The notes under the pieces: generated by a model
Database searches by the model: none
What the model saw: only the letters and a program-made list of their open reading frames with translations
What the model was told of the DNA's origin: nothing
Origin: Marinicella sediminis
GTDB lineage: Bacteria; Pseudomonadota; Gammaproteobacteria; Xanthomonadales; Marinicellaceae
Direction of reading: 5' to 3'
Assembly: GCF_002000055.1 (NCBI RefSeq)
Contig: NZ_MVBD01000003.1
Span: 248,001 to 312,000 of the forward strand
Length of the DNA stretch: 64,000 nt
Position numbers and translations under genes: made by a program
Part shown: piece after piece, positions 3,946 through 56,057 of the stretch
How positions within the stretch are numbered: position 1 is the first letter of the stretch
How the letters are laid out: the number at the start of each line of letters is the position of its first letter

Positions 3946-4683
3946 ATGTATTCATCCTCAGTTGGTCCATTGAAACCGCCTGGTAAGTTCAATACCCTGA
4001 AAGAGATGCGTGCGCCATTGGAATGGCTGTTCAGCTATCAGAACAGGCGAAAGCTGGCCCATGTGCCCCGCGGTCAGGGACAACTGGTGGTACTGGTTCC
4101 GGGTTATGGCGCCGATGAATGGTCTATGCGACCACTGAAAAAGTTCCTGACCGGCATCGGCTACCGGGTCTTCGACTGGGGCCACGGACGTAACCGGGGA
4201 CTGGTTACTCACGACACCCAACGGTTGGCTGTCACTGTTGAAAACCTGTATAAAAAGCATGATCAGCAAGCGGTACATTTGATTGGCTGGAGCCTGGGTG
4301 GGGTATTGTCCAGAGAAGTGGCACGGTTGCACCCACATTGGGTCAGTCAAATCATCACCCTGGGTACCCCCTTGATCGGTGGACCCAAATACACGGTGGT
4401 GGCCAATCGATATGCCAAAAGCATGAACATGGATCTGGATGCCTATGAAGCAGAGATTCATGCCATCAATGAGCAGGGTTTGAGCCAACCACTGACAGTG
4501 ATATACAGCAAGTCAGACGGCATTGTTGGTTGGCGAGCTGCATTGGACGCTTACAATCCCCAGGCCAGGAACCTGGAGGTCAGTTGTTCACACATGGGTA
4601 TGGGGGTGAGTGCAGAAGTCTGGGACATCATTGCGCATACCCTGGCTGATTCTGATGTGGAGACCAATGATGCACCTGGATGA
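3946..4683 (+). CDS. Alpha/beta hydrolase (lipase/esterase-like)
   Basis: A 245-residue protein. It has a VVLVPGYGADEWS oxyanion-loop region, the nucleophile elbow GWSLGG (Ser near residue 110), a late Asp in YSKSDGIVGW, and a C-terminal His in SCSHMGMG, giving a complete Ser-Asp-His triad. The ATG at 3946 is chosen because GGAG lies about 9 bases upstream; the ATG at 3931 sits inside the operator and has no ribosome site. No signal peptide, so probably cytoplasmic. It overlaps the thioesterase gene by 17 bases. Substrate unknown; the PGYGADEWSM pattern resembles PGAP1/lipase-like esterases. Confidence 0.88.
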   Translation: MYSSSVGPLKPPGKFNTLKEMRAPLEWLFSYQNRRKLAHVPRGQGQLVVLVPGYGADEWSMRPLKKFLTGIGYRVFDWGHGRNRGLVTHDTQRLAVTVENLYKKHDQQAVHLIGWSLGGVLSREVARLHPHWVSQIITLGTPLIGGPKYTVVANRYAKSMNMDLDAYEAEIHAINEQGLSQPLTVIYSKSDGIVGWRAALDAYNPQARNLEVSCSHMGMGVSAEVWDIIAHTLADSDVETNDAPG

Positions 4684-47821: not shown

Positions 47822-48721
47822 ATGCTTGACATCAAAAAATCCAGGGCCTTTTGTGCCATTGTTGAACACATGAGTTTCAGAAAAGCGGCCACCACTGTGG
47901 GGGTGTCACCGACCATGATGAGCAAATACCTGAAAGGACTGGAATCAGATGTCGGTTGTCACCTGATCAACCGCAATACCCGAGCCATCAGCCTCACCGA
48001 TGTCGGTCGCGAATATCACCGTCGGATCAAACCCATACTGCTGGAACTGGATCAACTCAATCAACAGATGTCCGCCTATGCCGGTGAAGTCCGGGGCCAT
48101 TTAAAGATCACCGCCACCATTGAATTCGGAGGCATTTATCTGGCTGAAGTGATCAAGCAATACCGCCAACAACATCCGCAGGTCAGTCTGGACTTTATCC
48201 TCACCAACCGCACCCTGGGTTTGTTTGATGAAGACATTGATCTGGCCATTCGGGTGGCACCCAAATTACCTGATTCGGGCCTGATTGCGATTCCCATTTG
48301 TCAAACCCACTTACGCACCTGGGCATCGCCCGGCTACCTTAAACGTTGCGGTGTGCCCAGAGACATGACTGCGCTGAAGCAACACGCCTGTTTGTTTTTT
48401 TCCGAGACCCCGAGGAAAAACAGTTGGTTGTTTCAGGTTGACGGTTGCGTCACAGAACAGCAGCTGCCCTGGCAGTGGCGCACCGACAATGGTCGCTTGC
48501 TGAATGAAGCTGCAGCCAACGACATGGGCATCATCCAGGCACCTGACTATTCAGTCAGTGAGTATGTGAAAAAAGGTGAGCTGATTGAAGTATTGGCCGA
48601 TTACCGACTTGAGCCATTTAACATTTGTGCGCTGTACCCACAACGCAACAGCGTGTCACCCAAGCTGACCCGTTTCATCCAATTGTTGAAAATGCATTTC
48701 AATGAACAGCCATTGTGGTGA
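47822..48721 (+). CDS. LysR-family transcriptional regulator
   Basis: A 299-residue regulator. The N-terminal helix-turn-helix is M-FRKAATTVGVSPTMMSKYLKGLESDVGCHLINRNTRAISLTDVG, and the C-terminal effector domain has GHLKITATIEFGG, DLAIRVAPKLPDSGLIAIPI and AANDMGIIQAPD. It is the DsdC/PecT-like branch. It is divergent from the amidohydrolase-RidA/M19 operon, which it probably controls. It ends 98 bases before the arginine leader ORF. Confidence 0.93.
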   Translation: MLDIKKSRAFCAIVEHMSFRKAATTVGVSPTMMSKYLKGLESDVGCHLINRNTRAISLTDVGREYHRRIKPILLELDQLNQQMSAYAGEVRGHLKITATIEFGGIYLAEVIKQYRQQHPQVSLDFILTNRTLGLFDEDIDLAIRVAPKLPDSGLIAIPICQTHLRTWASPGYLKRCGVPRDMTALKQHACLFFSETPRKNSWLFQVDGCVTEQQLPWQWRTDNGRLLNEAAANDMGIIQAPDYSVSEYVKKGELIEVLADYRLEPFNICALYPQRNSVSPKLTRFIQLLKMHFNEQPLW

Positions 48722-48819
48722 GGCCCCATGAGGCAGAAAAAACCCCCACATAACAAAAAAACATTTGCCATGGTGTTTCAAAGCGTGTTACGTTACGCAC
48801 AAATCACAGTAAATAACAC

Positions 48820-48930
48820 ATGACACAACAACTCGACAACCTGTTTAATTTAAACAATGCACCGGCTCAAAGCAGTGCAGTGGTTGTTCGTCGTCGCCGT
48901 CCGGTAAAGCGTATGGAGCTCTTTGGTTAG
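48820..48930 (+). CDS. Arginine-rich leader peptide of the arginine operon (proposed argL)
   Basis: A 36-codon ORF, too short for most ORF lists: it opens MTQQLDNLFNLNNAPAQ, then VVV, four consecutive arginine codons (CGT CGT CGC CGT at 48889-48900), PVK, a fifth arginine (48910-48912) and ends MELFG with TAG at 48928-48930. It is followed 30 bases later by an intrinsic terminator and then the arginine biosynthesis operon. In leader peptides of his, trp and leu operons a run of the end-product codons serves as the sensor, and here the run is of Arg codons directly before arg genes. No strong ribosome site is seen (only CACAGTAA). As a small secreted or antimicrobial peptide it would make less sense. 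Confidence 0.85.
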   Translation: MTQQLDNLFNLNNAPAQSSAVVVRRRRPVKRMELFG

Positions 48931-48988
48931 GCGTGTGATTCAGTAAAATAAAGAATTTAAAAACCCGGCCAAAGAGCCGGGTTTTTTT
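48918..48988 (+). promoter_or_regulatory. Proposed attenuator: antiterminator arm, terminator stem and T-run
   Basis: The terminator stem is AAACCCGGC (48961-48969) paired over 9 bp with GCCGGGTTT (48976-48984) and ends in seven T (48982-48988). The segment GCTCTTTGG (48918-48926), which lies in the last codons of the leader, is an exact reverse complement of CCAAAGAGC (48969-48977), made up of the terminator loop and the start of its 3' arm. Two G-U pairs could extend it. A ribosome stalled on the arginine run (to 48900) leaves 48918-48926 free to form the antiterminator. A ribosome at the TAG covers it, and the terminator forms. Confidence 0.82.
48961..48988 (+). terminator. Rho-independent terminator in the arg operon leader
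   Basis: A 9-bp GC-rich stem, a 6-base loop CAAAGA, and a T-run of seven. It stands upstream of argF with no gene end nearby except the 36-codon leader, so it serves attenuation rather than ending a normal gene. Confidence 0.92.
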
Positions 48989-49049
48989 ATACCCTGCTTT
49001 TTGGCTTTATCAAGAGACACCAACTGGTGTCTTAAAACAGGAAAAAACG

Positions 49050-50069
49050 ATGATAAAGCATTTTCTCAGCACCGAAGACTGGCCTCAGGGAGACCTGGAG
49101 GACCTGTTGACTGACGCCGGCTACCTCAAAGCCAATCCCATTCACAACCACTTACAGGGTAAATCCATCGCCTTGTTGTTTCTTAATCCATCGATGCGTA
49201 CCCGCACCTCTTTCGAACTGGGCATGCAACAACTGGGCGGCACCGCCATCGTCTTACAGCCGGGTCAGGATGCCTGGGGCATTGAATTTGAGCCTGGTGT
49301 GGTGATGGATGGTGACGCTGAAGAGCACATCAAAGAAGTGGCCGGGGTGCTCTCTTCCTATGTGGACATGATCGCCATCCGGGCCTTTCCTGAATTCAAA
49401 GACTGGTCGCAGGATCGCCTGGACCACAAAATCAAAGGTCTGGCCGCCCATGCCACAGTCCCGGTGATCAACATGGAAACCATTGTCCACCCCTGTCAGG
49501 AGCTGGCATTGATGATGACCATCAAAAACCACCTGAAAACCGTACACAGGAAAAAATTCCTGCTCACCTGGACCTATCATCCGAAACCTCTGAACACCGC
49601 AGTGGCCAACTCAGGACTGTTGATTGCTTCTAAATTTGGCATGGACGTGACCCTGCTGTGTCCCAATGAGCATTATCTGCTGGATGACCATTACCTCAAA
49701 GCAGCTCAGGCCCAATGCGCGGCCCATGGAGCGACTTTTACCGTGACCCATGACATCAAAGCGGCCTATCAGGGCGCTGATTATGTGTACGCCAAAAGTT
49801 GGGGAGCCTTGCCTTTTTATGGTGATCCGACGGCTGAATTGGCCGAGCGGGAACCTAACAAACATTTTATGGTGGATGGCGCCAAGATGGCACTGACCAA
49901 CAACGCCCGATTCAGCCACTGTTTGCCATTGAGGCGCAACATCAAAGCCACCGACGAGGTGATGGATGCTGATTATTGTGTGGCGCTGGAGGAAGCGGAA
50001 AACCGACTGCATGTACAAAAAGCATTGATGCTCAATCTAATGAACCAATCACTTAAAGAACAGGAATGA
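49050..50069 (+). CDS. argF': N-acetylornithine carbamoyltransferase
   Basis: A 339-residue protein. It has SMRTRTS (48-54) for carbamoyl phosphate, the QPGQDAW stretch with Trp near 76, MDGDAEEH with Glu near 92, HPCQ (147-150), and TWTYHPKPLNTAVANS and FSHCLPLRRNIKATD. These are features of the Xanthomonas-type AOTCase (EC 2.1.3.9), not ordinary ornithine carbamoyltransferase. The Glu near 92 argues for acetyl- rather than succinyl-ornithine. It carbamoylates N-acetylornithine to N-acetylcitrulline in the cytoplasm. First gene of the operon; it overlaps argG by ATGA. Confidence 0.93.
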   Translation: MIKHFLSTEDWPQGDLEDLLTDAGYLKANPIHNHLQGKSIALLFLNPSMRTRTSFELGMQQLGGTAIVLQPGQDAWGIEFEPGVVMDGDAEEHIKEVAGVLSSYVDMIAIRAFPEFKDWSQDRLDHKIKGLAAHATVPVINMETIVHPCQELALMMTIKNHLKTVHRKKFLLTWTYHPKPLNTAVANSGLLIASKFGMDVTLLCPNEHYLLDDHYLKAAQAQCAAHGATFTVTHDIKAAYQGADYVYAKSWGALPFYGDPTAELAEREPNKHFMVDGAKMALTNNARFSHCLPLRRNIKATDEVMDADYCVALEEAENRLHVQKALMLNLMNQSLKEQE

Positions 50070-51292
50070 CCATGAACTCAATTAATTCTGAATCGAACAA
50101 AACCATCGTGCTGGCTTTTTCAGGTGGACTGGACACCAGTTTCTGCCTCCATCAACTGGCCAGCCAGGGTCATCAGGTCCACACCGTACTGGTGGATGCC
50201 GGTGGCATGTCGGCCCAGGAGCTGAAGGCCATTGAAGCCAACGCCCTGAAGCTGGGTGCTCATCAGCACCACACCATCAACGCCCAACAAGCCATCTGGG
50301 ACGAATTTGTGGTTCCGCTGATCTGGTCCAAAGCCCGCATGCGGGGTGAATATCCGTTGCTCTGTTCAGATCGATATGTCATTGTCAGCTTATGTTTACA
50401 GCTGTGTGATGAGCTGAACACCCCGTATTTTGCCCACGGCTGTACGGCCATGGGCAACGATCAATTCCGCTTTGATCAGACCGTACACTCGCTGGGCGAT
50501 TACCAAATCATCGCCCCGATCAGGGACCTGCAGGCCGAAGTCACTGGCAACGTCCGGGATCATGAATTGGCGGTGCTGGGTGCCGCTGGCTTTGTCATGT
50601 CCAGCCAACACCAGCATTATTCCATCAATGAAAACATGTTGGGTGTGACCATTTCCGGCAGCGAAATCGATGCCTTTCAGGCGCCGACTGAAGCCAGTGC
50701 CAGCTGGGTGAAGGCCAAAGCGGATTGGCCGGCCACCCCGGGCCAATGGCAACTGACCTTTGCACAAGGCGTGTTGACTCAGTTGAATGGCCAGGCCATC
50801 GAAGGACCTGAGTTGTTGCAGCAACTGAACCAGCAACTGGCAGCTTATGGGATTGGCCGGCACATCTACACCGGTGATGTCAGTGTCGGACTGAAAGGCC
50901 GCATCGTCTTTGAGTGTCCGGGCATCGATGGTCTGATGATGGCCCACAAAGCGCTTGAGGATCTGGTCAACTCCAAATGGCAGAACCAGTTCCGCACCCA
51001 GGTGGCTGAGCGCTGGGCCGAGCTGGTCTATCAGGGTTTTTTCTATGAACCGCACAAAGCCGATCTGGAAGCTTACCTGCAAAACTCACAGTCACACATC
51101 AGCGGTACAGTGACCCTTGAAACCGCCGGTGGCAGTTTGCTGGCCACTGCAGTGGATTCGCCTTATATCGTCCAGGACCAGAATGCGGTTTATGCACAAT
51201 CTTGTGATTGGTCACCGGAAGAAGCCCTTGGTTTCATTAAACTCACCGGGCAGGGTGCCACCCTGGTCAATCAGGTCAGGAGGGCGTCATGA
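50066..51292 (+). CDS. argG: Argininosuccinate synthase
   Basis: A 408-residue protein. The ATP pyrophosphatase loop is LAFSGGLDTSFCLHQL; DAGG follows, and further motifs are YPLLCSDRYV, HGCTAMGNDQFRFD and KGRIVFECPG. It joins citrulline and aspartate. The start at 50066 overlaps argF by ATGA; an ATG at 50072 is the alternative. Belongs to the shorter-N-terminus group seen in Xanthomonads. Confidence 0.94.
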   Translation: MTMNSINSESNKTIVLAFSGGLDTSFCLHQLASQGHQVHTVLVDAGGMSAQELKAIEANALKLGAHQHHTINAQQAIWDEFVVPLIWSKARMRGEYPLLCSDRYVIVSLCLQLCDELNTPYFAHGCTAMGNDQFRFDQTVHSLGDYQIIAPIRDLQAEVTGNVRDHELAVLGAAGFVMSSQHQHYSINENMLGVTISGSEIDAFQAPTEASASWVKAKADWPATPGQWQLTFAQGVLTQLNGQAIEGPELLQQLNQQLAAYGIGRHIYTGDVSVGLKGRIVFECPGIDGLMMAHKALEDLVNSKWQNQFRTQVAERWAELVYQGFFYEPHKADLEAYLQNSQSHISGTVTLETAGGSLLATAVDSPYIVQDQNAVYAQSCDWSPEEALGFIKLTGQGATLVNQVRRAS

Positions 51293-52407
51293 CACAGGCA
51301 GCCAGACAAACTTCAGGTAAGGTCAATCAAGCCTCTATTCAACAAAGCATAGAACAACATCTGGCGATGTTAATCAGTCACGATACCTGTAACCCGCCAC
51401 GTGAAATTTGTTTTACCGATCCGCTATTCATCGGGTTGGAACGGTTCTTCAAAGCCTGGGGTTTCAAAGTTACCATGGCTGACTTTGCTGACGGCCGGGT
51501 GGCCTTTTATGCCCTGAGGGGGCAGCCCAAAGTGCTGTTCAATGTGCACCTGGACACGGTACCAGTCAGTGATGACTGGCGGCATGATCCGTTCACTCTG
51601 GTCAAGGAGAATAACCGATATCATGGCCGCGGGGTATGCGACATCAAAGGTGCTGCTGCCTGCCTGATGGCCTTGGCGGAGCGGTCATCTGCAGACATGG
51701 CGGTGTTGTTCACCACTGATGAGGAAGGTACCAACAGTTGCTGTGTTGAACAGTTCATCAGTGGCCATGATTTGTCAGTCTTTCACCAGGTGGTGGTGGC
51801 TGAACCGACTGGTTGTCATGCGGTGCTGGAACACCGGGGCTATGCCTCCGCGCATGGTGAATTCAGCGGCATCAGTGGTCATTCTTCATCACTCAATGCA
51901 CTGGCTGGTAATGCCGTCCATCAAGCCGCTCAATGGCTGAACCAGGCCACTGGATTTGCTGCCAATGCCCGAACTAAAGACAATCCGGCTGGGGTGTGTT
52001 TCAACCTCGGTTACATCACCGGTGGAGAAAAGAACAACATGATTGCTGCGTCTTGTCAACTGGGATTCAGTGTCAGGGTTCCGGCCGGGCAGTCTTCACA
52101 GGGGGTCTATCAGCAGCTGACCAAAGGGCTGGATAATCACGCCAGCTGGTACACGTCTATGCTGGCTCCAGCCTTGCCGGAACAGGCCGGCATGAGTGTC
52201 GAATCACTGGCCTTTTGTCAAAAGCATGATCTGCCCGTTGGTCAGCCGGTGGATTTCTGGACTGAAGCCGCATTGTTCAGCCAGGCGGGAATACCAGCCT
52301 TGGTGCTGGGGCCTGGAGACATAGCTCAGGCGCACACGGTGGATGAATGGGTGGCAGAGGAGCAGTTGCTGAATTGTTATCACTTGTATGCGGGGTTGCT
52401 GTCATGA
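51289..52407 (+). CDS. argE: Acetylornithine/acetylcitrulline deacetylase (M20)
   Basis: A 372-residue metallo-amidohydrolase. Zinc motifs are FNVHLDTVP, GRGVCDIKGAAA and TTDEEGT, with the catalytic Glu pair in DEEG and a late HTVDEWV. In this pathway the natural substrate is N-acetylcitrulline made by the upstream carbamoyltransferase, as in Xanthomonas. It overlaps argG by ATGA. Confidence 0.9.
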   Translation: MTQAARQTSGKVNQASIQQSIEQHLAMLISHDTCNPPREICFTDPLFIGLERFFKAWGFKVTMADFADGRVAFYALRGQPKVLFNVHLDTVPVSDDWRHDPFTLVKENNRYHGRGVCDIKGAAACLMALAERSSADMAVLFTTDEEGTNSCCVEQFISGHDLSVFHQVVVAEPTGCHAVLEHRGYASAHGEFSGISGHSSSLNALAGNAVHQAAQWLNQATGFAANARTKDNPAGVCFNLGYITGGEKNNMIAASCQLGFSVRVPAGQSSQGVYQQLTKGLDNHASWYTSMLAPALPEQAGMSVESLAFCQKHDLPVGQPVDFWTEAALFSQAGIPALVLGPGDIAQAHTVDEWVAEEQLLNCYHLYAGLLS

Positions 52408-53777
52408 AAACACTGAATGCTGCCCAAAGTTCTCCCAAACAGATCATCCAGAGTGCTTTGCATCAATTGACCAACAGTCAGGAGGCCAGGCACTATCTGC
52501 AACGTTATCACGCCCAGGATGACCTCAGGTTCGCGGTGGTCAAGGTCGGTGGCGGTATCCTTGCCCATGAACTTGAACAACTGGCTGAATCATTGGCCCT
52601 GTTGGCCAACCTCGGTCTGACGCCCATTGTGGTGCATGGGGCCGGTGAACAAATTGATCAGGGGCTTGCACAAGCAGGGATCGTCAGCCAGAAAAAATCC
52701 GGTTTCCGCGTTACCGATGAAGCCAGCATGGCGGTGATCAGGCCGATCATGTACCAGGTTAATCAACAACTGGTGGCTGCCATTGAACAACAGGGTGTGC
52801 GTGCCAATGGTGTGGTGCATGGGGTGTTTGAATGTGATTATCTTGATCAGGCTGAACTGGGTTTGGTTGGCGAAGTGCACAAAGTGCATTTGTCACCGAT
52901 CCGTCAGGCCCTTCACAGTGGAGCCATACCGGTGCTCAGCTGCCTGGGAGAAACCGGCAGTGGGCAAGTGATGAACATCAATGCCGATGTGGCCACCCGC
53001 GAACTGGTCTGGCAGATCAATCCGCACAAAATCCTGTTCGTCACGCCCACCGGCGGGGTATTGGATGGTGATGACAAGTTAATCTCCGCCATCCAGTTAA
53101 ACAATGACCTGGCCCACATGCTTAAGCAGGACTGGCTGCATTCGGGTATGTTGCTTAAGTTGCAGCAAATCCAGGAGATGCTTGAACCCCTGGGAGCGGG
53201 TCACTCAGTATCCATCACTTCAAGTCAGAACCTGGCCCGGGAGCTGTTCACTCATCAAGGGGCTGGGACTTTCATCAATCTGGGTGAAGCGATTCATGAG
53301 CATTCATCCATGACAGGCGAACTGGAAACGGTGCTCAATGCTTTGTTTGAACAGGCTTTTGAACGTCAGTTCAGACCGGGCTTTCTGTCCTCACTGCCCA
53401 TCACCGCGATTTACCTGGCCGAATCTCACCGGGCCGCAGCTGTGGTCACAGAGGGTTTTCGGGGCCATGCCTATCTGCATAAATTTGCAGTCACCCCGGA
53501 AGCCCGGGGTGAAGGCCTGGCCGGGGCGTTATGGCAACAAATCAAAGCCAATCATCCACAACTGTACTGGCGCTCAAGGCTCAGCAATCCAGTTAACAAC
53601 TGGTATTTCAAGCAAGCCGATGCCTCAATCAAGTCCACTGATCCCGATCATTCATGGGTGGGGTTTTCCTGTGGCTTCTTTCCTGCAGAATCAATGGCCT
53701 GTCTGCAACAGGCCTTTGCCGAAGACGCCGGATGGCAATCTGACGACCTGAATCAACAGGAGGTGAAACATGCCTGA
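52404..53777 (+). CDS. argB: Bifunctional N-acetylglutamate synthase-kinase
   Basis: A 457-residue fusion. The amino-acid kinase domain (about 30-300) has VVKVGGGI, VVHGAG, GFRVTD, NINADVATRELV and TPTGGVLDGD. The C-terminal GNAT domain (about 330-445) has the acetyl-CoA loop VTPEARGEGLAGAL. It carries out the first two steps of arginine synthesis and is the known Xanthomonas-type NAGS-K. The kinase part is likely the arginine-inhibited site. It overlaps argE by ATGA; the longer start at 52347 is not supported. Confidence 0.93.
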   Translation: MKTLNAAQSSPKQIIQSALHQLTNSQEARHYLQRYHAQDDLRFAVVKVGGGILAHELEQLAESLALLANLGLTPIVVHGAGEQIDQGLAQAGIVSQKKSGFRVTDEASMAVIRPIMYQVNQQLVAAIEQQGVRANGVVHGVFECDYLDQAELGLVGEVHKVHLSPIRQALHSGAIPVLSCLGETGSGQVMNINADVATRELVWQINPHKILFVTPTGGVLDGDDKLISAIQLNNDLAHMLKQDWLHSGMLLKLQQIQEMLEPLGAGHSVSITSSQNLARELFTHQGAGTFINLGEAIHEHSSMTGELETVLNALFEQAFERQFRPGFLSSLPITAIYLAESHRAAAVVTEGFRGHAYLHKFAVTPEARGEGLAGALWQQIKANHPQLYWRSRLSNPVNNWYFKQADASIKSTDPDHSWVGFSCGFFPAESMACLQQAFAEDAGWQSDDLNQQEVKHA

Positions 53778-54747
53778 ACTCATCAAAGCCGCCATCCTCG
53801 GTGCCCGGGGATATGTGGGTGTGGAGCTGATTCAATTGCTGGATGCCCATCCCAAAGTTCAACTGACTGCGGTTTATTCCAGGTCCTATGCCGGCCAGCC
53901 CGTGCATCAGGTGGTACAGGGCTACTCTGATCAGCAACTGATTTATGAAACCGGGGATTTTAACCAATTGGCTGAACAGTCGCTGGATGTGTTGTTTGTG
54001 GCCTTGCCCGATGGGCTGGCTGTCAGGCATCAGAAACTCTGGCAACAGATGGCACCTGACACCCTGATCATTGACCTCAGTGCCGATCATCGTTTTGATG
54101 ATGGCTGGGTGTATGGACAACCTGAGACCAACCAGGCTGCGTTGTCCGGCGCCCGGCTGATCGCCAATCCGGGTTGTTATGCCACGGGCATGCAATTGGG
54201 ACTCAAGCCTTTGTTGTCGTATCTGCTGCCAGCAGACCTGGATGTGCCAACTGCCTTTGGGGTATCTGGTTACAGCGGTGCGGGGACCACGCCATCGGAT
54301 AAAAACAATCCTCAACGCCTGGCTGATAACCTGTTGGCCTACAAACCCACTGACCACACCCATGAGCGGGAGGTCAGCCATGTATTGGAACACACCATCC
54401 GTTTTATGCCTCATGTGGCGGCTCATTTCAGAGGCATTCATCTGACCTTATCAGGTAAATTAAACCTGTCGTTGTCGGCAAACGAAGTCCGGAAACTGTT
54501 CATCAACCATTACCAGGAACATCCGTTGATCCAAGTAGAGCGGGCTGCTCCGGAAATCCAACAGGTGGCCAACAGTCATGATTTGATCATCGGTGGCTTT
54601 GCCTGCTCGACGAGTGAGCCAGGACACCTGGTGTGGAACGTTTGCCTGGATAATCTACTCAAAGGTGCCGCAACCCAGGCCGTACAAAATATGAACCTGG
54701 CGCTGGCCGTCAGTCACCAAACCAAAGCTTATGAGGGGATTTTATGA
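53770..54747 (+). CDS. argC: N-acetyl-gamma-glutamyl-phosphate reductase
   Basis: A 325-residue Rossmann protein: GARGYVGVELIQLL for NADPH, the active-site Cys in NPGCYATG (about residue 137), SGYSGAG and HVAAHFRG with the catalytic His, then the EHPLIQV region. It reduces the phosphorylated acetylglutamate to the semialdehyde. It overlaps argBA by 8 bases and argH by ATGA. The downstream aminotransferase argD is elsewhere. Confidence 0.94.
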   Translation: MPELIKAAILGARGYVGVELIQLLDAHPKVQLTAVYSRSYAGQPVHQVVQGYSDQQLIYETGDFNQLAEQSLDVLFVALPDGLAVRHQKLWQQMAPDTLIIDLSADHRFDDGWVYGQPETNQAALSGARLIANPGCYATGMQLGLKPLLSYLLPADLDVPTAFGVSGYSGAGTTPSDKNNPQRLADNLLAYKPTDHTHEREVSHVLEHTIRFMPHVAAHFRGIHLTLSGKLNLSLSANEVRKLFINHYQEHPLIQVERAAPEIQQVANSHDLIIGGFACSTSEPGHLVWNVCLDNLLKGAATQAVQNMNLALAVSHQTKAYEGIL

Positions 54748-56057
54748 ATGTGCACAAAAACAAAGGGCCCACAAACGTGCTCTGGTCCGGGGATCAGCAA
54801 TCCATGCCACCTGAAGTCATGGCTTTTCTGGCGGGTGAAGACGTCCGCCTGGATCGGGCTTTGTTTGTCTATGACATTCAGGGTACCCGGGCACATCTGA
54901 TCGGGCTGGCTGAAATCGGCATCATCAGCGATGCAGAACTGAATCAGTTCAAACAGGCACTGGAGGATTTGCAACAGGTCTATGCAAGCGGTGAATTCGT
55001 GCTCGACCAGCGCTTTGAGGACGGACATTCTGCCATCGAGTTTTTCCTTACCGAACAACTTGGAGCGCTGGGCAAGAAAGCCCACACCGGCCGCTCCAGA
55101 AATGACCAGGTACTGACCTGTTTGCGTCTGTTTATGCAGGATCAGCTGGATGAATTGAGTGATCAGGTCAGCGGTGTGATCGAACAACTGTTCTCTATGG
55201 CGGAGGCCAACCAGAACACACTGATGCCCGGTTACACTCATCTGCAGCGGGCCATGCCCAACACCGTGGCCGTGTGGTTACTCGGCCTGGCCGAAAGCCT
55301 GTTGGATGACCTCGAACACCTGAATGGGTTGAAAAAGTTACTGAACTCGTCACCATTGGGCACAGCCGCTGGTTTTGGTGTGCCGTTGCCCCTGGCTCGG
55401 GAAACCAGTGCCGCGGCCATGGGTTTTGCTCGGGTGCAGATCAACCCGGTGAGCACCCAGAATTCCAGGGGAAAATATGAGCTGATGGTACTGCATGGCT
55501 TGTCATACCTATTGACTGATGTGCGCCGATTTGCCTGGGATCTGAGTTTATACATGACCAGTGAATTTGATTTCGTGGGTCTGCAAAGCAGCCATACCAC
55601 TGGTTCCTCAATCATGCCCAACAAAAACAACCCCGATGTGGTCGAATTGATGCGTGCATCGGTGGCTGTGGTCGATGGTGCCGTGGCTCAGGTGCAGTCA
55701 TTGTTATCGCTGCCAGGTGGTTATCAAAGGGACCTGCAGCTGAGCAAAGAACCACTGATCAAAGGCATGCAGGCCACCCGTGAAGTCATCGGTTTGTTGC
55801 CTGGTTTGTTGGGTGCTGTGGTCTTCAAAAAAGACCACATGCGCACCGCCATCAGCCCTGAAATGATGGCCACCGATCAGGCCCTGCACAAAGTGGGACA
55901 AGGCCAGAGTTTTCGTGAAGCTTATCTGGACTCCAAACAGGACCATGAGTTGGTGATCACTCCGGAAGATTCTATCAAATCCCGGGTGTCCCTCGGCGGT
56001 GCAGCCAACCTGGGCCTGGAGCTGATGAAGTCAAGGCTGGAAAAGCTCACAGCATAA
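54744..56057 (+). CDS. argH: Argininosuccinate lyase
   Basis: A 437-residue fumarase-superfamily lyase: LWSGDQQSMPPEVMAFLAGEDV, HTGRSRNDQV, GYTHLQRAMP and the signature GSSIMPNKNNPDV (catalytic Ser loop near 287). It splits argininosuccinate to arginine and fumarate, ending the operon. A strong hairpin follows at 56089-56107. Confidence 0.96.
   Translation: MNVHKNKGPTNVLWSGDQQSMPPEVMAFLAGEDVRLDRALFVYDIQGTRAHLIGLAEIGIISDAELNQFKQALEDLQQVYASGEFVLDQRFEDGHSAIEFFLTEQLGALGKKAHTGRSRNDQVLTCLRLFMQDQLDELSDQVSGVIEQLFSMAEANQNTLMPGYTHLQRAMPNTVAVWLLGLAESLLDDLEHLNGLKKLLNSSPLGTAAGFGVPLPLARETSAAAMGFARVQINPVSTQNSRGKYELMVLHGLSYLLTDVRRFAWDLSLYMTSEFDFVGLQSSHTTGSSIMPNKNNPDVVELMRASVAVVDGAVAQVQSLLSLPGGYQRDLQLSKEPLIKGMQATREVIGLLPGLLGAVVFKKDHMRTAISPEMMATDQALHKVGQGQSFREAYLDSKQDHELVITPEDSIKSRVSLGGAANLGLELMKSRLEKLTA

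Follow-up and report, generated by a model that had tools for sequence, protein, structure and literature searches.

In gammaproteobacteria, end-product control by a repressor is classically exemplified by arginine. The arginine attenuator peptide of fungi, a eukaryotic and translational system, is a short ORF that answers to arginine, and acts by nascent-chain arrest at high arginine. This fungal peptide is cited in the accessible part of PMC2928234, and ArgR is treated as the gammaproteobacterial arginine regulator in the portion of PMC5343134 that was available. Leader ORFs that sense arginine through Arg codons are also known in bacteria. According to the sections of PMC6386406 open to us, consecutive Arg codons in orf34 of the Salmonella speF leader sense arginine by ribosome pausing; that leader controls ornithine decarboxylase via Rho, masking of a ribosome-binding site and RNase G, and no intrinsic-terminator arg switch appears in those sections. 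In Staphylococcus aureus, the Arg codons of the rbfL leader ORF (the rare AGA and AGG) sense arginine supply and stop rbf translation at low arginine, as far as the available part of PMC13009471 goes. An earlier note on the DNA described here, made from its letters alone, had stated that no leader-peptide attenuator for arginine was known to it in bacteria. In that breadth the claim is too wide, because orf34 and rbfL are bacterial Arg-codon leaders already on record, but no leader-peptide attenuator of an arginine biosynthesis operon was found in the open-access full-text literature (subscription journals lay outside our scope), nor in the accessible parts of PMC1262725, PMC1382215, PMC12508126, PMC2659441, PMC2928234, PMC2965389, PMC5343134 and PMC8632094. 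The available text of PMC1262725 gives T-boxes as the then-known RNA-level control of arginine genes and reports no conserved arginine element in Actinobacteria, and the word arginine is absent from the main text of PMC2965389, whose supplementary tables were out of scope. The novelty narrows to an attenuator of arginine biosynthesis, of which an earlier mention cannot be excluded.

The window, by which we mean the whole analysed stretch of 64,000 nucleotides, comes from Marinicella (order Lysobacterales, Gammaproteobacteria) and contains an Arg-rich leader ORF and an intrinsic terminator in front of argF'GEBCH (Table 1). As the earlier note had read it, the leader has 36 codons with four consecutive Arg codons and a fifth nearby, is followed by a terminator at 48961-48988, and ends in GCTCTTTGG, a 9-base reverse complement of CCAAAGAGC; the sequence bears out all of these positions and the exact complementarity, and resolves the terminator into a core stem, A-T pairs that extend it and a T-run. 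The fifth Arg codon is present, but would not be a useful stall site because the antiterminator arm is only 8 nt away. Pfam and NCBIfam profile searches with the leader ORF returned no match, and inspection upstream of its ATG revealed no clear Shine-Dalgarno sequence. A sigma-70 consensus scan of the window sequence placed no promoter before the leader; in the candidate listed in Table 1, TACNTT is present in seven of eight aligned Marinicella loci and the -35-like part is more variable. Consensus scanning reported the terminator hairpin for the - strand alone, since the A-T pairs consume its T-run on the + strand.

Table 1. Features of the leader and operon, in window coordinates.
Feature	Position	Strand	Basis and remarks
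Candidate promoter, TTGCCA, 18 nt, TACGTT	48765..48794	+	inferred by eye; start expected near 48801
Leader ORF, 36 codons, MTQQLDNLFNLNNAPAQSSAVVVRRRRPVKRMELFG	48820..48930	+	ATG 48820, TAG 48928-48930; sequence check
Control codons, Arg x4 (CGT CGT CGC CGT)	48889..48900	+	sequence; Arg run conserved with synonymous changes
Possible 1:2 hairpin (anti-antiterminator or pause), Arg codons with post-stop sequence	48889..48942, approximate	+	RNAalifold and pair counts, 8 loci; not established
Fifth Arg codon, CGT	48910-48912	+	sequence
Antiterminator arm GCTCTTTGG, final ORF codons	48918..48926	+	sequence, pairing, folding
Intrinsic terminator core, CCCGGC-CAAAGA-GCCGGG	48964..48981	+	sequence, folding; A-T pairs extend stem
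CCAAAGAGC, partner of antiterminator arm inside terminator	48969-48977	+	exact reverse complement of GCTCTTTGG
Terminator T-run	48982..48988	+	sequence
argF', N-acetylornithine carbamoyltransferase, first gene of operon	49050..50069	+	NF003384, 525 bits, cut-off 288
argG, argininosuccinate synthase	50066..51292	+	best NF003385 and TIGR00032; 540 of 603 and 254 of 268 bits, both below cut-off
argE-like, acetylornithine deacetylase	51289..52407	+	NF006439, 350 bits, cut-off 345
argB, acetylglutamate kinase, long type	52347..53777	+	NF003387, 494 bits, cut-off 426
argC	53770..54747	+	TIGR01850, 272 bits, cut-off 234
argH	54744..56057	+	TIGR00838, 299 bits, cut-off 280

This arrangement occurs once in the window. 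Among its terminator-like sites on both strands (21 with the corrected finder, 29 with an earlier one), only the leader's has an upstream ORF with at least three Arg in seven codons; in related loci, other terminator-like sites have such an ORF in 8 of 71 cases. A search of the window genome for a second copy of the leader returned only the leader itself. No Rfam model matched the window at gathering score, hence no T-box or riboswitch model; the 35 matches below that score were chiefly to terminator-like models, and weak ones to Phe, Trp and Leu leaders (21-23 bits) lie over the ORF end and the terminator. Directly upstream of the leader and in the same direction is a gene for a LysR-type regulator (47822-48721), whose best NCBIfam match, YafC, is below cut-off.

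We put at about 90% the probability that the element is a ribosome-mediated transcription attenuator, sensing charged tRNA-Arg and controlling argF'GEBCH. RNA polymerase would start upstream of 48820, with a ribosome following into the leader ORF. With ample arginine, that ribosome would read the Arg run and reach the TAG, where its footprint would cover GCTCTTTGG; the terminator (48964-48988) would then fold and transcription would end before argF'. Under arginine shortage, it would be the Arg codons on which the ribosome stalls, and GCTCTTTGG would stay free to capture CCAAAGAGC as it emerges, in which case the terminator could not fold and the operon would be transcribed. The promoter position, leader translation, stalling and the response to arginine are inferred, with no experiment behind them. 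Evidence at the level of sequence supports the earlier note's attenuator through the anatomy and its conservation, two matching alternative helices, the spacing, the folding and the lack of a detectable ArgR.

The operon that follows the leader makes the amino acid that would be sensed. NCBIfam gene calls agree with the order argF'GEBCH given in the earlier note, with the matches for argG below their cut-offs. Because the ORF called argB overlaps argE, its true start is probably downstream of 52347. The best named match of the window ArgF', among the best 80 of 505 confirmed, is that of Marinicella meishanensis (87%). An ArgF' match is absent in eight of 17 Marinicella genomes, and another has only a weak one; the missing matches may reflect arginine auxotrophy or loss of the operon. 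Upstream of carA, a script found no similar Arg leader. A hairpin with a T-run (AAGTTGG-TTAGCC-CCAACTT, 1400-1419 of locus L187, on contig C40 of the window genome) does stand there without an Arg leader, some 80 nt upstream of the match to the carA domain (1501), and is possibly a separate attenuator.

Conservation was assessed in regions upstream of argF', with ArgF' as the anchor for finding relatives. The loci comprised 30 loci and 12 leftover upstream regions from 61 genomes, the best 80 of 505 confirmed named loci, 40 loci chosen by hand (mostly one per genus) among the matches listed for the 397 genomes of the order, 389 of which have an ArgF' match, and 12 more from the same search. 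Duplicate contigs and two loci with less than 200 nt of upstream DNA (L059 and L096) were left out. Within at most 350 nt before argF', a script sought an intrinsic terminator and an ORF ending ~15-60 nt before it, and counted residues per seven-codon window; the corrected terminator finder, which allows pairing beyond the T-run, was also re-run on loci outside the order and on ArgR-bearing and leaderless loci.

A terminator was found in 130 of 148 upstream regions, and in 128 of these 130 it is preceded by an ORF with at least three Arg in seven codons. At this threshold, other residues qualify less often in the 130 regions: Ala, which comes next, has a count of 67, about half that of Arg, followed by Val with 20 and Leu with 17, and no other residue exceeds eight. 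At a threshold of at least four the count is 61 for Arg vs 15 for Ala, the remaining 67 leaders having only three Arg. When regions sharing an exact 80-mer were merged, 136 groups remained, of which 118 have a leader, 16 have no called terminator and two have a terminator without an Arg run. Five of the 12 extra loci were duplicates and all seven new ones have the leader, so that overall 125 of 143 non-redundant regions combine a terminator with a preceding short ORF of at least three Arg in seven codons. The comparison of homologous arg operons proposed in the earlier note thus finds Arg run, ORF and terminator conserved far beyond the genus. The Arg codons vary synonymously while Arg is retained, and apart from Arg hardly anything in the peptides is common to different clades. 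Most Marinicella have VVVRRRRP..LFG; the sister genus has VVVRRNRRR, RRLRR or RRARRR, together with PGCE or AGV; other bins have RRPRR, RRLRRP and RRRRR; Kangiella has RRRS, a SAR86 bin RLRR, and 54 groups have MTSRARR. As a general motif, a proline following the Arg cluster was considered and rejected; it occurs at 33 of 76 loci, but at only 13 of 52 without the MTSRARR type.

The two terminators without an Arg run are at L050 and L089; the latter, in a SAR86 bin, has in the last 240 nt before argF' an ORF, MSSQNNKNLRGQLI, with an antiterminator-like arm, a terminator and one Arg codon only, and is either a decayed or a differently tuned version. Several of the 16 of 143 regions without a called terminator (L024, L025, L057, L064, L066, L068 and L071 are among these regions) belong to Wenzhouxiangella. 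One of them, L067 from a Wenzhouxiangella bin, is a miss of the finder: the last 300 nt before argF' contain an SPRRRR ORF and a CCCAGCC hairpin, and the region was counted as having no terminator because its run of four T is below the threshold. At L132 (genome G040), argF' lies close behind another gene. Two probable or evident assembly artefacts were also noticed: before the leader of L113, at about 140-176, is a stretch resembling sequencing adapter, which we take to be transposase-end adapter sequence, and at L021 the leader region is tandem-duplicated with N between the copies, probably through misassembly.

The end of the ORF matches its own terminator. At most loci it copies the terminator 3' arm, as in GGCTGGGT with terminator arm ACCCAGCC, GGCCGGGT with ACCCGGCC, and CCAGGTT with AACCTGG; the Marinicella pairing is between TCTTTGG and CCAAAGA. 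The earlier note's description of an arm that pairs with the terminator loop and part of the 3' arm is therefore the rule in the eight Marinicella loci, but does not extend to most relatives, in which the copied 3' arm would capture the 5' arm. An exact helix of at least 7 bp between arm and own terminator exists in 80 of 109 leaders, compared with 922 of 8030 swaps (11.5%), in which each leader was set against terminators from a different arm class, and with 3% of shuffles (165 of 5450); at 6 bp or more the figures are 91 of 109, 1877 of 8030 and 626 of 5450. Three loci (L152, L161 and L185) were excluded from an enlarged helix set. A match between arm and terminator across homologues, which the earlier note had named as a check, is thus far commoner with the leader's own terminator than with swapped terminators or shuffled leaders. 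Relative to the ORF stop, the arm occurs in all three frames (55, 26 and 12 of 93), as does the motif GCTGGG alone (19, 10 and 3 loci), which argues that the ORF end is conserved as RNA rather than as peptide. These data also bear on whether the ORF is simply the gene of a small functional Arg-rich protein that by chance ends in a terminator before argF', a view to which we attach next to no weight. Some peptide-level conservation among MTSRARR-type leaders speaks for it. Nevertheless, outside Arg the peptides differ almost wholly between clades, and the ORF end is kept as RNA in three frames and matches its own terminator. Moreover, in 10 of 109 groups only 18-25 nt separate the end of the terminator from the argF' match, too little to accommodate another promoter, so that the terminator must be read through for argF' to be transcribed.

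Spacing is likewise compatible with attenuation by a translating ribosome. The arm starts 9-31 nt (median 20) after the first base of the cluster's last Arg codon and ends between -24 and +9 nt (median -2) relative to the last base of the stop in 91 groups, so a ribosome at the control codons would leave the arm free and one at the stop would cover it; 14 of 93 loci, with the arm starting less than 13 nt after the last Arg codon, are borderline. The distance from ORF stop to terminator is 23-52 nt (111 loci), and the window leader ends 119 nt before argF'. These distances, together with the retention of a terminator and a matching antiterminator in most loci, count against a leader acting mainly via translation or Rho instead of via its intrinsic terminator. 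Such a mechanism has precedent, in that the bacterial Arg-codon leaders known from what was available of PMC6386406 and PMC13009471 act in this way, yet we regard it as scarcely credible here. By its downstream gene, which is argF' and not speF, the window leader does not fall into the speF orf34 type.

Folding with a ribosome footprint masked (from 25 nt upstream to 12 nt downstream of the A-site codon's first base) fits the two-state switch put forward in the earlier note: for the window leader, the predicted probability of the terminator is 0.00 with the ribosome at the first Arg codon, 0.01 at the fourth, 0.99 at the stop and 0.03 with no ribosome. Without a ribosome, this leader would favour the antiterminator, unlike classical leaders. 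Across 76 loci (a set of 79 minus L062, L084 and L098, which have merged hairpins or unknown bases), equilibrium folding gives a terminator probability below 0.5 in 37 with the ribosome at the first Arg, 32 at the last Arg, 2 at the stop and 17 with none. Equilibrium folding was rejected as a sole test, since it yields the expected switch in the window but in only about half of the relatives; in the others it keeps the terminator despite a stalled ribosome, and the switch there must rely on the order of folding during transcription. Reliance on folding order is normal for attenuators. For transcripts ending at the loop, 63 loci were folded, and the antiterminator helix exceeds a probability of 0.5 in 61 of them when the ribosome is at the first Arg, in 62 when it is at the last Arg and in none when it is at the stop, the last figure being dictated by the footprint mask itself; 13 of the 76 loci, without a 6-bp helix, were omitted.

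A third helix of the classical 1:2 kind is less well supported. In 18 MTSRARR-type leaders, mostly from Rhodanobacter, Dyella, Luteibacter and Frateuria, the ARMAA codons pair with the antiterminator arm in 196 of 198 cells, and a ribosome on the Arg codons would, by inference, cover this segment, as in classical 1:2 logic. No double-sided change occurs in this helix, however; shuffled columns score equally and slid versions pair in 10-45%. The eight Marinicella loci have a different 1:2 helix, between the Arg codons and post-stop sequence, with 88.3% of 103 cells paired and no covariation signal. A general test for a 1:2 hairpin was weak (mean z -0.54; 15 of 93 below -1.5).

The MTSRARR branch, which includes Rhodanobacter, Dyella, Luteibacter, Frateuria and Dokdonella, has the chain SARMA(A/S)GMTSRARRP and the codon pair CGA-CCG, and raises the possibility that the nascent leader peptide arrests the ribosome in response to free arginine or as an exit-tunnel signal, the Arg codons being a peptide motif and not a sensor of tRNA charging. 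We consider this quite improbable as the general explanation. Among 57 regions of this type, A-6 (57), R-5 (53), A-3 (57), G-1 (56) and P+7 (52) are conserved, and A-3 and G-1 are retained while their third codon positions vary; third positions are variable at -5, -3, -2, -1, +1 and +4 (1.1-1.9 bits). CGA serves as the final Arg codon in 55 of the 57, with CCG next in 51. Against these signs, M, T, S, R, A, R and R formed the search key of the set and are invariant by construction, A-6 and P+7 show hardly any third-position variation, and A-6, R-5 and A-3 lie inside the RNA helix with the antiterminator arm; once key and helix residues are discounted, G-1 alone remains as a clean indication that a peptide residue other than Arg is under selection. 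Leaders outside this type have little in common beyond Arg-rich runs. Moreover, for free arginine to repress the operon, a ribosome stalled at high arginine would have to promote terminator formation, and the geometry does not fit this. A contribution of the nascent chain in the MTSRARR type therefore has room in these data, without being established by them.

The codon pair itself may be under selection as a slow one. Slow translation of CGA-CCG is known from yeast. The two Arg codons before the CGA alternate between CGT and CGC.

The remaining evidence concerns ArgR. Control of the window operon by ArgR was rejected, because searches of the window genome with PF01316 and PF02863 gave no match, while positive controls such as E. 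coli were recognised. Among 61 relatives, each domain was found in 3, and across the order PF02863, the only one of the two models searched there, was not found in 392 of 397 genomes. The five ArgR genomes of the order belong to one family (f11) and have a much weaker ArgF' match (E 1e-56 to 1e-66; 37-40% identity in three of the five). In one of them, G059, argR is oriented divergently to neighbours that we interpret as argD, argF and argB. No leader was found before argD or argF in G059, nor before argF in G042. At L130, from an ArgR genome, an Arg-rich ORF before a terminator-like site at 1681 was rejected as a leader because it lies inside a 392-codon open frame; at L131 the first finder returned one Arg-rich ORF with a terminator-like site at 4225, ~600 nt before an argD-like gene.

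PF02863 was found in none of 16 further ArgF' genomes, including Kangiella and SAR86, for which completeness is not given. Of 370 sampled genomes of the class, 14 exceed the ArgF' cut-off, five from the order without ArgR and nine from outside it with ArgR. None of 11 loci outside the order, two of them below the cut-off, has a terminator or leader. Leader and ArgR never occur together in any genome examined for both. Some genomes have neither: those of the Wenzhouxiangella type where searched, G018 from the same family as the window genome, and G556 and G748, which are outside the order and below the ArgF' cut-off. Where searched, the genomes behind the regions with no called terminator (for example G040, G058, G037, G101, G113 and G149) are also without ArgR. 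Leaderless, ArgR-less genomes may have lost this control or may have another in its place. For the leader-bearing genomes, the best reading suggested by this distribution is that the attenuator stands in for ArgR.

An extended proposal is that a new, arginine-specific class of attenuator made good the loss of ArgR in the ArgF'-type lineage and that the MTSRARR branch added nascent-chain control, a single leader then responding to tRNA-Arg charging as well as to its peptide inside the exit tunnel. This remains speculative, and we think it unlikely in this full form. If the attenuator reading as such is true, most of an order would regulate its arginine operon by ribosome stalling, which would explain how these bacteria manage without ArgR, and more than 100 natural variants would be available for studying how a leader replaces a repressor. 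The leader also offers a directly testable arginine sensor.

Among known systems, the ArgR regulon shares the pathway and the principle of end-product control with this locus but depends on a DNA-binding repressor, which was not found in the leader-bearing genomes searched. The Cys leader uORFC-8-2 upstream of cysS was likewise proposed as a ribosome-mediated attenuator by comparative genomics, and differs in its amino acid, cysteine, and its setting in alphaproteobacteria, according to the accessible part of PMC8632094. The element works like the trp, his, leu, ilv, thr and phe attenuators of proteobacteria (Rfam RF00513, RF00512, RF00506 and RF01859 among them) on the reading favoured here; these similarly combine a short ORF with a run of end-product codons, an intrinsic terminator, a mutually exclusive antiterminator and, downstream, the biosynthesis operon of the same amino acid. 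By the structural features of such leaders, the arg element would qualify in all except the 1:2 hairpin, which is unsettled, and its arginine response is inferred. In contrast to the classical attenuators, the arg leaders have a 1:2 helix in part of the lineages only and without covariation support, the antiterminator arm is placed within the ORF or at its end, and the amino acid read is arginine.
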